From Bacillota bacterium (GTDB taxonomy: Bacteria; Bacillota; UBA4882; UBA10575): 35,141 bases of DNA. The position numbers and the translations under genes were made by a program. The stretch lies in assembly GCA_012727895.1 (NCBI GenBank), contig JAAYGG010000015.1, forward strand, positions 1 through 35,141, written 5' to 3'. Positions 28,846 through 34,880 of this stretch are shown here, one piece after another. Position 1 is the stretch's first letter, and each line of letters starts with the position of its first letter. The notes beneath the pieces were generated by a model. That model did not search any database. It was given only the letters and a program-made list of their open reading frames with translations, and had not been told where the DNA came from.

Positions 28846-29822
28846 ATTATATCCTGGGCTATCTCCGGGGGACCGGGTTAAAGCCGGGAAACCGGGCACA
28901 CGCGGCCGGAAGGCGGGAGAGAGTCCGGGATTTTTTGCTCTTTCTCAACCTCGCCCTGCTACTCATCGTTGGTTTTGCCCCCGTAAGCCCGCTTCCGGCG
29001 AACCCCGGTGCGGGCCAGGAAACCGCTTTTCCCGGGTATGCGGCTTTTGCCGCCTCGTGCCTCCTCCCAGGTGAGAAGGCGGGTTCCGGGCTTCTCTCTC
29101 TCACCCGCCTGTTGCCGGGAGACCGTCCTTTCTCCCGGCAGGAACTCCCCCCTTCCCTGCCGGTCAAACCCCGGGTGGCTTTGATCTTGGATGATGTCGG
29201 TTTTGTCCGGGATCCCGTGGAGGCGTTTTTTTCGATCGGGGCCCCCTTGACCTTTGCGGTATTGCCCTGGGGTGAATATTCCCAATACCATGCGGAAAAA
29301 GCAAAGAACCATGGTTTTGAGGTAATGCTGCACCTGCCTTTGGAGCCCCTGGATCCGGCGCACGCGCCTGGCCCGGGGACCCTCTTTGTGGATGCTTCCG
29401 CGGAAGAGAACCGGCAACGGCTGAGGGCTAATATCCGGAATATCCCCGGGGTTACCGGGGTCAATAACCATATGGGCTCCAAGGGGACCCAAGACCCGGC
29501 CTTGATGCGCCTGGTCATGGAGGAACTTAAGGCGCAAGGGCTTTTTTTTGTCGACAGTTTTACCATTGAAGGGTCGGTGGCGTTAGCGGCTGCCCGGGAA
29601 CTGGGTGTACCGGCGGCGCGGCGGGATTTTTTTCTGGACCATTACGGGACGGAAGATATCCCCCGGCAGTTGGAGAAGTTGTTAGAGGCCGCGCTGGAAG
29701 AGGGGAGCGCCATCGGGATTCTCCATCCCCGCCCGGGGGCGGCGGAAGCCCTTGCCGGCTTTCTCCCCCGTCTTCAGGCGGCCGGCGTAAGGATTGTCCC
29801 CGTTTCGGAACTGGTGAAGTAA
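28794..29822 (+). CDS. Divergent polysaccharide deacetylase family protein
   Basis: Up to 342 residues. A membrane anchor (FLLFLNLALLLIVGFAPV, residues 47-64) is followed by a low-complexity linker, then from about residue 125 the deacetylase-like domain: RVALILDDVG, FAVLPWGEYSQYHAEKA, EVMLHLPLEP, GVTGVNNHMGS and GLFFVDSFT. These are the motifs of the 'divergent polysaccharide deacetylase' family (PF04748), often found next to S41 proteases and ftsEX or M23 hydrolases; the substrate is unknown, presumably a cell-wall polysaccharide. The start is uncertain: ATG 28794 overlaps the protease gene by 52 bases; ATG 28818, after GGGGGGAAG, is as plausible. The gene ends in a strong terminator. Confidence 0.85.
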   Translation: MAGGRNSRMVPGKGSGIDYILGYLRGTGLKPGNRAHAAGRRERVRDFLLFLNLALLLIVGFAPVSPLPANPGAGQETAFPGYAAFAASCLLPGEKAGSGLLSLTRLLPGDRPFSRQELPPSLPVKPRVALILDDVGFVRDPVEAFFSIGAPLTFAVLPWGEYSQYHAEKAKNHGFEVMLHLPLEPLDPAHAPGPGTLFVDASAEENRQRLRANIRNIPGVTGVNNHMGSKGTQDPALMRLVMEELKAQGLFFVDSFTIEGSVALAAARELGVPAARRDFFLDHYGTEDIPRQLEKLLEAALEEGSAIGILHPRPGAAEALAGFLPRLQAAGVRIVPVSELVK

Positions 29823-29855
29823 AAAAACCGCCCGCGCAGGCCGGGCGGTTTTTTT
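29821..29855. terminator. Two-way terminator after the deacetylase gene
   Basis: CCGCCCG (29828-29834) and CGGGCGG (29842-29848) with a seven-base loop, flanked by seven A and seven T residues that extend the stem to 14 bp. The first A's overlap the gene's stop codon. Confidence 0.92.
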
Positions 29856-29905
29856 AAATCTCGGTTACCGGGAGAGGAATCAGGGGAGTTTTAGCGAATA
29901 TTAAT

Positions 29906-29919
29906 CGAATACATGTTCG
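29906..29919. promoter_or_regulatory. LexA (SOS) box upstream of uvrB
   Basis: CGAATACATGTTCG differs in one base from the Gram-positive LexA/DinR site CGAACnnnnGTTCG, and the palindrome extends to AATCGAA/TTCGATT. TTGAAA two bases later may be the -35 of a promoter with TATTAT or TATAAT near 29943-29951. This agrees with uvrBA being under SOS control in Bacillus. Confidence 0.8.
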
Positions 29920-29937
29920 ATTGAAAAATCCAAAATT

Positions 29938-30052
29938 ATTGGTATTATAATCATCGCACACGCGCGACGAAGAATACTGATAGTAGATTAACCTATGGTT
30001 CAGGATTGATATTATAACCATCGCGCGGTACATGCGACGAATACTGGGTAAC
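29938..30052 (+). repeat. Two diverged direct repeats with promoter-like cores
   Basis: ATTGGTATTATAATCATCGC (29938) and ATTGATATTATAACCATCGC (30005) match at 18 of 20 bases; each is followed by a GC-rich TCGC...GCGA inverted repeat, then GACGAA and AATACTG. The copies are 67 bases apart and fill the gap before the uvrB ribosome site. Each carries a TATAAT-like element. Confidence 0.8.
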
Positions 30053-30066
30053 AGGAGAGTAAGAAA

Positions 30067-32049
30067 ATGGCGGGATTTGAACTGATCGCCCCTTATGAGC
30101 CCAAAGGCGACCAGCCGGAAGCCATCGCCAATTTGGCCGCCGGGGTGGAGAAGGGCTTACGCCACCAGGTTTTACTGGGGGTGACCGGGTCGGGAAAGAC
30201 CTTTACCATGGCCGGGGTTATTGCCCGGGTGCAAAGGCCCACCCTGGTTATTGCCCACAACAAAACCCTGGCTGCGCAGTTATACAGCGAGTTTAAGGAG
30301 TTTTTCCCGAAAAACGCCGTCGAATATTTTGTCAGCTATTACGATTACTACCAGCCGGAGGCCTATATCCCCCAGACCGATACTTATATCGAAAAAGACG
30401 CCAGTATCAACGAGGAGATTGACCGGCTCCGGCACGCCGCCACCTCCGCCCTTTTCGAGCGGAGGGATGTGCTCATCGTGGCCAGCGTTTCTTGTATTTA
30501 CGGCCTGGGTTCGCCTGAGGATTATAAGGGGTTGACGATTGCCCTGCGTCGCGGGGAGTGGCAGGAAAGGGATAAATTCCTCCGGCGCCTGGTGGGGATC
30601 CAGTACTCCAGGAACGATCTGGGCTTCAGCCGCGGGACCTTCCGGGTGCGCGGGGATGTGGTGGAGATTATCCCGGCCTACGAAGAGAATGTGATCCGGG
30701 TCCAGTTTTTTGGGGACGAGGTTGAGCGGATCCTGGAGATTGACCCCCTCACCGGCGAACTGCTGGGAGAGAAAGAAGCGGTGACCATCTATCCGGCCAC
30801 CCACTATATCACCACCGAAGAGAAGATGAAACGGGCGATTGTCGCGATTGAAGAGGAGTTGGAGGAGCAACTGGCCCGGTTGCGGGCGGAAGACAAGCTC
30901 CTCGAAGCCCAGCGGCTGGAGCAGCGGACCCGTTTTGACCTGGAGATGCTCCGGGAGGTCGGGTACTGCCAGGGGATTGAAAACTACTCCCGGCATCTGA
31001 CCGGCCGCGGCCCGGGGGAGGCCCCGGCTACCCTCCTGGATTACTTCCCCGATGATTTTCTGGTCTTCATCGACGAATCTCATGTAACTATCCCGCAGTT
31101 ACGGGCGATGTACGCCGGGGACCGTTCCCGCAAGGAGACCCTGGTGCGTTACGGTTTCCGGCTCCCGTCGGCCCTGGACAACCGTCCCCTGCGTTTTGAC
31201 GAGTTTGAGAGGGCTGTCAACCAGGTAATATACGTTTCGGCCACCCCCGGACCTTATGAAATGGAACGCAAAGAGCAATTGGTGGAGCAGTTGATCCGCC
31301 CGACCGGGCTGGTTGACCCGGAGATTGAGGTCCGGCCGGTGGAGGGCCAGATCGATGACCTGATGGAGGAGATCCGGGTCCGGGTGGAGAGGAACGAACG
31401 GGTCCTGGTGACCACGTTGACCAAGAGGATGGCGGAAGACCTCACCGAGTACCTGGAAGAGGCCGGGTTTAGAGTCCGGTACCTCCATTCGGAGATCCAT
31501 ACCCTGGACCGGGTGGAGATCCTGCGCGATCTCCGGTTGGGGAAATTCGATGTCCTGGTTGGGATCAACCTGCTCCGGGAAGGGCTGGATCTGCCGGAAG
31601 TCACCCTGGTGGCGATTTTGGACGCGGATAAAGAAGGATTCCTCCGTTCCGAGACCACCCTCATCCAGATCACCGGCCGGGCCGCCCGGAATGTGGCGGG
31701 GAAAGTGATTATGTACGCCGACGAGATCACCGACTCAATGGCGCGGGCGATTAAAGAGACCAACCGGCGGCGGGAGAAGCAACTGGCCTATAATAAGGAA
31801 CACGGGATCACCCCGGCCACAGTGAAAAAGGCCGTCCGCGATCTAGTCAGGGCCGGTGCGGTTGCTGAAGAAAAGGTCCGCTACGAAGTGGAACGGGCGC
31901 GGGAAAAAGGCCTCACTCAAGAGGATATTGCCGCGACCGTCGCCCGCTTGGAGGAAGAGATGTTGCAAGCCGCCGCGAAACTGGAATTTGAAACCGCGGC
32001 CAAAATCCGGGATGAATTGCGGGAATGGCAGAAGCTACTGGAGGAATGA
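30067..32049 (+). CDS. uvrB: Excinuclease ABC subunit B
   Basis: 660 residues. Damage-verifying helicase-like subunit of nucleotide excision repair. Walker A is [10 protein letters not shown] (Lys44), the DNA-clamping hairpin is [21 protein letters not shown], motif II is FIDESH, and helicase motifs V-VI are [14 protein letters not shown] and [11 protein letters not shown]-terminal UVR segment ([23 protein letters not shown]) contacts UvrC. ATG 30067 follows CAGGAGAG. It lies two bases upstream of uvrA, forming the usual repair operon under the LexA box. uvrC is not in the window. Confidence 0.97.
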
Positions 32050-32051
32050 GC

Positions 32052-34880
32052 ATGAGCAAAGAAAAGATTGTGGTCCGGGGCGCCCGGGTGCACAACTTGA
32101 AAAATATCACTGTGGAGATCCCCCGTGACCGCCTGGTGGTCTTTACCGGGCTATCCGGTTCCGGCAAATCTTCGCTGGCTTTTGATACTATTTACGCCGA
32201 GGGGCAGCGGCGGTACGTGGAATCCCTCTCCGCCTACGCCCGGCAGTTCCTGGGCCAGATGGACAAGCCGGATGTGGACAGTATCGAAGGGCTTTCCCCG
32301 GCCATCTCCATCGACCAGAAGACCACCTCGAACAACCCCCGCTCCACTGTGGGGACGGTAACGGAGATCTACGATTACCTGCGGCTGCTTTATGCCCGGG
32401 TCGGCCACCCCCACTGTCCCGATTGCGGCCTGGAGATTAAGCGCCAGACCGTAGAGCAGATTGTCGACCAGATCAACCAACTGCCGGAAGGAACAAGATT
32501 TTATATCCTGGCCCCGGTGGTCCGGGGGAGAAAGGGCGAATACGCCAAGGTCTTTTCCGATCTGAAGAAGGAAGGGTTTGTCCGGGTCCGGGTGGACGGG
32601 GAGATCCGGGAGCTTGAAGAGGAGATCCGGCTGGAAAAGTATAAGCAGCACTGGATCGAGGCGGTGGTCGACCGGCTGGTTGCCCGCCCGGGGAACGAAT
32701 CCCGCTTGGCGGATTCGGTCGAGACCGCGCTGAGGCTGGCCAAGGGCCTGGTGATCGTCGCCCCGCTTTCCGGGGAAGAGCAGTTGTACAGTGAGAATTA
32801 CGCCTGCCCCAACTGCGGGTTCAGTGTGGAAGAAATGACCCCGCGGATGTTCTCGTTCAACTCCCCCTACGGCGCCTGCCCGGAATGTGACGGCCTGGGG
32901 ACAAAGATGGAGATTGATCCGGAAAAGGTCCTGGATTTCAGTAAATCCCTTCAGGACGGCGCGGTCCTTGCCTGGAGCGCCTACCGGGATTCCTGGTCCC
33001 TCCAGTATTTAACGAGCGTAGGCAAGCATTACGGGCTTGACCCGGCGACGCCTTTGCGGGAGGCAACCCCCGAACAGATCGACGTGATCCTCTACGGGAC
33101 GCGGGGGGAGAAGGTTCCCGTTGTTTACCGGGGAAAGGACGGAAGGGAATGGCGGCATGAGGTCCGCTTTGAGGGGATTGTCAATAATCTGACCCGCCGC
33201 TACCGGGAGACCCATTCGGAGGGTATGCGCCAGGAGATCCAGGAGAAATACATGACGTTCCGGCCTTGCCACACCTGCCGGGGGTCCCGTCTTCGCCGGG
33301 AGAGCCTGGCAGTGACGGTAAACGGGAAAAACATCAGCGAGTTGACGGCCCTTTCCGTCTCCGCGCTCCGCAAGTTCCTGCGGGAATTGGACCTCAGCCA
33401 GAAGGAACAGTTGATTGCCGAGCGGTTGTTGAAGGAGATCGACCTCCGCCTGGGTTTCCTGGAGAATGTGGGTTTGGAGTACCTGACTTTGGACCGGGTC
33501 TCCGGGACGCTTTCCGGGGGCGAGGCCCAGCGGATTCGCCTGGCCACCCAGGTGGGCTCCGGCCTGGTCGGGGTCTTGTATATTTTGGACGAGCCCAGTA
33601 TCGGCCTGCACCAGCGGGATAACCGCCGCCTGATCGATACCTTGAAAGGCCTGCGCGACCTGGGGAATACCCTGATTGTGGTGGAACATGACGAGGAGAT
33701 GATCCGGGAAGCCGATTATATCATCGATATCGGGCCGGGCGCCGGGAGCCACGGCGGCGAGATCGTGGCCGCCGGGGACCTGAAAACGATTATGGAGAGT
33801 CCGGCTTCCTTGACCGGCCAGTACCTCTCCGGGAAACGCCGGATTCCCGTGCCCGCCGGGCGGCGGAAGGGGAACGGCGCCTGGCTGGAGGTAAAAGGGG
33901 CCCGGGAGCATAACCTGAAAGGGATTGATGTCCGGTTTCCCCTGGGCTGCTTTATCTGCGTCACCGGGGTCTCCGGCTCCGGCAAGAGCACACTGGTGAA
34001 TGAGATCCTCTACCCGGCGCTGGCCGCGAAGTTAAACCGGGCGACCACCCTTACCCCCGGCGCCCATACCGGGGTGGAAGGCCTGGAACACCTCGACAAA
34101 GTAATTTGTATCGACCAATCGCCGATCGGGCGGACGCCCCGTTCCAATCCAGCCACCTATACCGGGGTTTTCGATGATATCCGGGCGGTTTTTGCCGAGA
34201 CCACCGAGGCCAAAATGCGGGGGTACAAGCCGGGGCGGTTTTCCTTTAATGTTAAAGGCGGGCGTTGTGAAGCCTGTCAGGGTGACGGGATTATTAAGAT
34301 TGAAATGCACTTTCTCCCGGATATTTATGTCCCCTGTGAGGTATGTAACGGCAAACGGTATAACCGGGAGACCTTGGAGGTTAAGTACAGGGGGAAGACC
34401 ATCGCCGATATCTTGGAGATGCGGGCGGAAGAGGCCCTGGAATTTTTCCAGAACCACCCCAGGATCAAGCGGCGTCTCGAGACCATCTGTGATGTGGGCC
34501 TTGACTATATCAGGCTTGGGCAACCCGCCCCCACCCTCTCCGGCGGCGAAGCCCAACGGGTCAAATTAGCCACGGAACTCTCGAAACGCAGTACCGGCCG
34601 GACCTTTTATATCCTGGACGAACCCACGACCGGCCTGCATTTTGCCGATGTCCAGAAGCTCCTGGAAGTCCTGGAACGGCTGGTGGAGGCGGGCAACACC
34701 GTCCTGGTGATCGAGCACAACCTGGATGTGATTAAAACCGCCGACTACATTATCGACCTGGGGCCGGAAGGCGGCGATGCCGGCGGCCGGGTGGTTGCCA
34801 CCGGGACCCCGGAGGAGGTGGCCGCCCACCCCACTTCGTACACAGGGGCGTTCCTGCGCAAGATTTTGCCTGCGCATTAA
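32052..34880 (+). CDS. uvrA: Excinuclease ABC subunit A
   Basis: 942 residues, full length. Two ABC modules: Walker [14 protein letters not shown] near the start and [13 protein letters not shown] in the second half, with signatures [13 protein letters not shown] and [13 protein letters not shown]. Zinc-binding cysteine pairs are present at CPDCG, CPNCG...CPECDG, CHTCRG and CEACQGDG...CEVCNG. It scans DNA for lesions as a dimer and loads UvrB. ATG 32052 lies seven bases after GGAGG; ATG 32046 would overlap the uvrB stop and sits too close to the ribosome site. A terminator follows about 95 bases later. Confidence 0.97.

Follow-up and report, generated by a model that had tools for sequence, protein, structure and literature searches.

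Promoters under LexA control are combined with promoters controlled otherwise upstream of several SOS genes, among them uvrB and ssb of Escherichia coli and mycobacterial recA. Three promoters (uvrBp1-p3) precede E. coli uvrB; one has a strong LexA box, and p3 is controlled largely by other means (PMC6015884). At E. coli ssb, a lone LexA box at about -170 acts on the most distal promoter only, the nearer promoters being constitutive (PMC9505508), while mycobacterial recA has two promoters (P1/P2), one LexA-dependent and the other, nearer the start codon, LexA-independent (PMC5656591). In Clostridium difficile, uvrBA is a LexA-controlled operon with a box of the GAAC-N4-GTTC type at -30 (PMC4234289). 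In view of these precedents, the initial annotation of the locus considered here, which knew of no described element of its form, was mistaken on this point as regards the overall layout.

The locus lies in a stretch of 35,141 nucleotides (hereafter the window) from a Bacillota genome, G000, which was examined genome-wide by searching for patterns. Within it, uvrB (30067-32049, + strand; Pfam UvrB, UvrB_inter, Helicase_C) is overlapped at its end by uvrA (32043-34880, + strand; Pfam UvrA_inter, UvrA_DNA-bind), the start of which is a chosen codon, the longest open reading frame beginning at 32025. Upstream, a gap of 244 bases separates uvrB from a divergent polysaccharide deacetylase gene (Pfam PF04748) ending at 29822. 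At 29820-29856 (+ strand), a perfect 15-base inverted repeat (100% complementary, 7-base loop) runs out into a T-rich tail and is probably the intrinsic terminator of the deacetylase gene; the stem was not among the calls of a consensus terminator scan. At the other end of the gap, a probable ribosome-binding site, AGGAGA (30052-30057, + strand), precedes the uvrB ATG at 30067.

The window holds a single LexA (SOS) box, CGAATACATGTTCG, at 29906-29919 (pattern and PWM, assigned to neither strand). It is a palindrome of the CGAAC-N4-GTTCG (Bacillus/Clostridium) type, and scores 19.8 against -5.4 for the next best site in the region. Matches without a mismatch occur at three places in the genome, of which this is one. 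As in an SOS operon, only one base separates it from a promoter -35, that of P1 below.

The initial annotation had reported two similar units between this palindrome and uvrB, and both are real. Copies 1 and 2 (29938-29979 and 30005-30046, + strand; repeat and pattern searches) each run from an extended -10 through an inverted repeat to AATACTG. Their first 20 bases, ATTGGTATTATAATCATCGC (29938-29957) and ATTGATATTATAACCATCGC (30005-30024), are identical at 18 of 20 positions with an offset of 67, and CGAAGAATACTG / CGACGAATACTG come after at the same offset, the inverted repeat in between differing slightly in length. Since the best 20-mer match in 300 dinucleotide shuffles of 29857-30066 never exceeded 16/20, the duplication, in direct orientation, is real. 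Each full unit comprises a -35-like hexamer, a 16-base spacer, the extended -10 (TGn-TATTAT), an inverted repeat with arms CATCGC/GCGACG, and AATACTG. The duplicated extent seems to span about 67 bases, between the -35 (ATTGA/ATTAA) and approximately AATACTGrTA, instead of the 45-50 first proposed. A dispersed repeat or mobile element (e.g. a MITE) was rejected, as the genome contains only the two uvrB copies; eight more matches to the shorter -10/start core, at up to two mismatches, lie mostly within coding regions; a match on contig C67 is in a coding region, as are most other matches in the family.

A promoter consensus scan returned two sites, one per copy, against 0.6 +/- 0.8 expected. 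P1 (TTGAAA-16-TATTAT, 29921-29948, + strand) and P2 (TTAACC-16-TATTAT, 29988-30015, + strand) share an identical geometry, with hexamers 16 bases apart and a TG ahead of the -10. They agree with the sigma-A extended -10 promoter, which calls for a spacing of 16-18 and for A2 and T6 in the -10 hexamer, at 10/12 and 9/12 positions; their counterparts in the congener G002 are of the same kind. The -35 of P2 begins 68 bases past the LexA box; it is weak in G000, while that of G002 reads TTGACT. Both the sequence and its conservation in G002 give good support to the two start sites suggested by the initial annotation.

On this basis, it seems fairly likely that the sigma-A promoter of uvrB-uvrA was copied long ago in a tandem duplication of some 67 bases, leaving a LexA-blocked P1 and a LexA-independent P2. 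What was copied would have been a vegetative sigma-A promoter with an extended -10, start region included. Repression by LexA is established, and because the P1 -35 lies one base from the box, a bound LexA dimer should block P1 until DNA damage occurs. P2, 68 bases beyond the box and with no other LexA-like site at hand, should for that reason be mostly LexA-independent, escaping direct repression and providing basal uvrBA expression. We infer here that both promoters fire, that P1 alone is repressed, and in which direction evolution proceeded. Against duplication, the copies do not agree in their spacers between -35 and -10, which leaves some chance that the outer parts converged.

Conservation was assessed in G002 as the sole congener, the other one, G001, being without an assembled uvrB; a contig search gave only uvrB relatives at most 68% identical, which were left out of the promoter comparison. 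The UvrB proteins of G000 and G002 share 95% identity, and the four-fold degenerate sites of uvrB 77%. The whole double arrangement is kept: the LexA box (CGAATATATGTTCG in G002), TTGAAA/TTGACT, the extended TATTAT, the inverted repeats (CATCGC...GCGACG or TATCGC...GTGACG) and ATACTG. From LexA box to ATG, 137/161 positions are identical, and from the P1 extended -10 to the end of its inverted repeat, 28/30, to be set against the 77% at four-fold degenerate sites. The LexA box also occurs upstream of uvrB in most close relatives. The duplicated unit is narrower in distribution: among 29 class genomes, TATTATAAynATCGC-N4-14-GyGACG was found at uvrB of G000 and G002 only, twice in each, being absent from the 27 others and from the rest of G000. 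The search for further copies proposed in the initial annotation therefore succeeded at uvrB of the sister species and at no other gene. The arrangement is real and lineage-specific, and it probably functions as tandem promoters.

The spacing of the box within the family points the same way. Among 11 other family genomes read upstream of a full-length uvrB, 10 carry a LexA box, G007 having no clear one. In eight of these ten the box stands 84-103 bases from the ATG (-94, -95, -95, -95, -95, -98, -103 and -84); the distance is 161 bases in G000 and 156 in G002. With one unit (67 or 65 bases) subtracted, 161 becomes 94 and 156 becomes 91, the usual family spacing, which would fit one extra promoter unit inserted by tandem duplication. 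The fit is suggestive, since two genomes of genus g3, with boxes at -185 and -187, have equally long leaders without duplication. As a separate observation, in the uvrB upstream regions of sister genera and of a same-order genome, many relatives carry TTTATGTAAAC or TATGTTAAC just behind the -10. This motif of the start region is conserved from one genus to the next, is not evident in the present one, and may be an operator or else a conserved sequence for initiation.

The -10 core itself is widespread. TGGTATyAT(AA) is common in this family and recurs in dnaA promoters of several genera. Those of sister genera have the form TTGTCA-17-TATTAT/TATCAT preceded by TGG, with ATCATCGC behind several of them; in G000, the dnaA region contains TTTTTGGTATCATAA. 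Given this sharing, the best reading of TATTAT with its TG is an ordinary extended -10, and that of the CATCGC behind it a start-region sequence. In the sister-genus dnaA promoters, TTGTCA-17-TATTAT was also seen with TTTGG ahead, often ATCATCGCGTC behind, and then a DnaA box; they agree with the uvrB unit in the -10 and the start region, with an exact 19-mer in G011.

The initial annotation had suggested, as an alternative to two start sites, that a second factor besides LexA binds here. The start-site inverted repeat would then be the operator of a repressor or activator, duplicated along with the promoter. The repeats, CATCGC-ACACGC-GCGACG in copy 1 (29952-29969, + strand) and CATCGC-GCGGTACAT-GCGACG in copy 2 (30019-30039, + strand), have six-base arms with one mismatch. 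Retention of the arms in both copies, and the identity of copy 1 between G000 and G002, speak for such an operator, which we nonetheless regard as unlikely: the arm spacers of the four copies (two in G000, two in G002) measure 6, 9, 6 and 7 bases, which would alter helical phasing, copy 2 is conserved at only 14/21 positions in G002, and no gene besides uvrB of G000 and G002 shares the unit in the 29 class genomes, nor do the other LexA-box genes of this genome (lexA and others). The arms alone are close to chance in the genome (CATCGCN4-10GCGACG has five matches, three of them outside uvrB, against two for a reversed control), and CATCGC right behind the -10, without a second arm, also occurs in sister-genus dnaA promoters, so that it is perhaps just a favoured initiation sequence. 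With a short repeat, a variable spacer and occurrence at uvrB only, the second factor is unsupported; the inverted repeat, which in copy 1 sits at the expected transcription start, is in all likelihood no more than a piece of the initiation region that was duplicated, or at best a weak hairpin at the 5' end of the mRNA. The seemingly novel parts of the initial annotation, inverted repeat and second factor, are the least supported.

A role in RNA is also improbable. The long P1 transcript would pair copy 1 with copy 2, which the short P2 transcript cannot do, and the two leaders would differ in stability or translation. Minimum-energy folds do pair the two copies in both species, and the G002 leader stands out (z -2.6; 2 of 200 shuffles as good), but that of G000 is unremarkable (z -0.9), any inverted repeat that is present twice is able to pair between its copies, and Rfam gave no family at gathering score, its sub-threshold matches being centred on the terminator stem. 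A strong leader hairpin was likewise rejected on its weak folding energies (-4.4 to -6.7 kcal/mol for the hairpins of the inverted repeats, z about -1 where tested; -4.4 kcal/mol and z -1.2 for copy 1). It is unlikely that the duplicated inverted repeat acts as a regulatory element, be it an operator or an RNA switch telling P1 from P2 leaders, and so places nucleotide excision repair in the genus under a second, LexA-independent control.

There is little probability, too, that only one promoter is active, its duplicate being silent or in decay. The weak P2 -35 in G000 and the divergence of the P2 start region between the species (14/21) would fit such decay; against it, both extended -10s and both -35-like hexamers are kept in both species, and P2 of G002 has TTGACT. 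A degenerate second LexA box at copy 2, an idea drawn from a shared GAATAC, was discarded, with a PWM score of about -8.6 against 19.8 and an unconvincing alignment to the LexA box (49 and 292 of 1000 shuffles equally good).

Read as a LexA-blocked P1 followed by a LexA-independent P2, the locus resembles each of the described systems in part. With E. coli uvrB it shares several promoters before the gene and a LexA box at one of them; its box is of a different type, its promoters are probably duplicates of each other, which those of E. coli are not described as being in the available text, and the DnaA boxes of p3 have no counterpart here (PMC6015884), TTATCCACA being absent from 29820-30066 at up to one mismatch. 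The geometry of E. coli ssb is that proposed here (box at -161), at another gene with three promoters and a box divergent from consensus, and experimentally tested (PMC9505508). Mycobacterial recA likewise pairs a LexA-dependent promoter with a LexA-independent one nearer the start codon; the latter is damage-inducible via PafBC (motif tTGTCRgtg-8 nt-TannnT), unlike P2, which looks like a plain sigma-A promoter (PMC5656591). The C. difficile locus is alike in its uvrBA operon and GAAC-N4-GTTC type box, which lies at -30 instead of -161, and the available account mentions no duplicated promoter (PMC4234289).

If the proposed duplication is correct, the operon receives one damage-controlled and one largely always-on start, and a short tandem duplication has partly uncoupled an SOS gene from LexA by means of a promoter beyond the reach of the operator, of which this would be a clear natural example. 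Such a tandem-promoter change is an ordinary kind of regulatory change, and its scope is modest: it concerns one gene in one genus, and other SOS genes are known to have this layout.

Other LexA-type sites were noted elsewhere in G000. Three clustered boxes lie between a lexA-like repressor gene and a divergent open reading frame (C22:27909-27983). On contig C158 (38-79), the LexA-like sites CGAACAAACGTTTG and GGAACATATGTTTG stand on either side of a promoter-like GTGCTATAAT, ahead of an open reading frame that resembles a radical-SAM protein and is possibly an unusual SOS gene. Finally, a perfect LexA box, CGAACATATGTTCG (C122:3578-3591), is found just behind a TATAAT-like hexamer and precedes an open reading frame containing MRKIKEVFILEQNQYFGGDWTAEKLERVKKYLQAYVRIMNKQNFRF.
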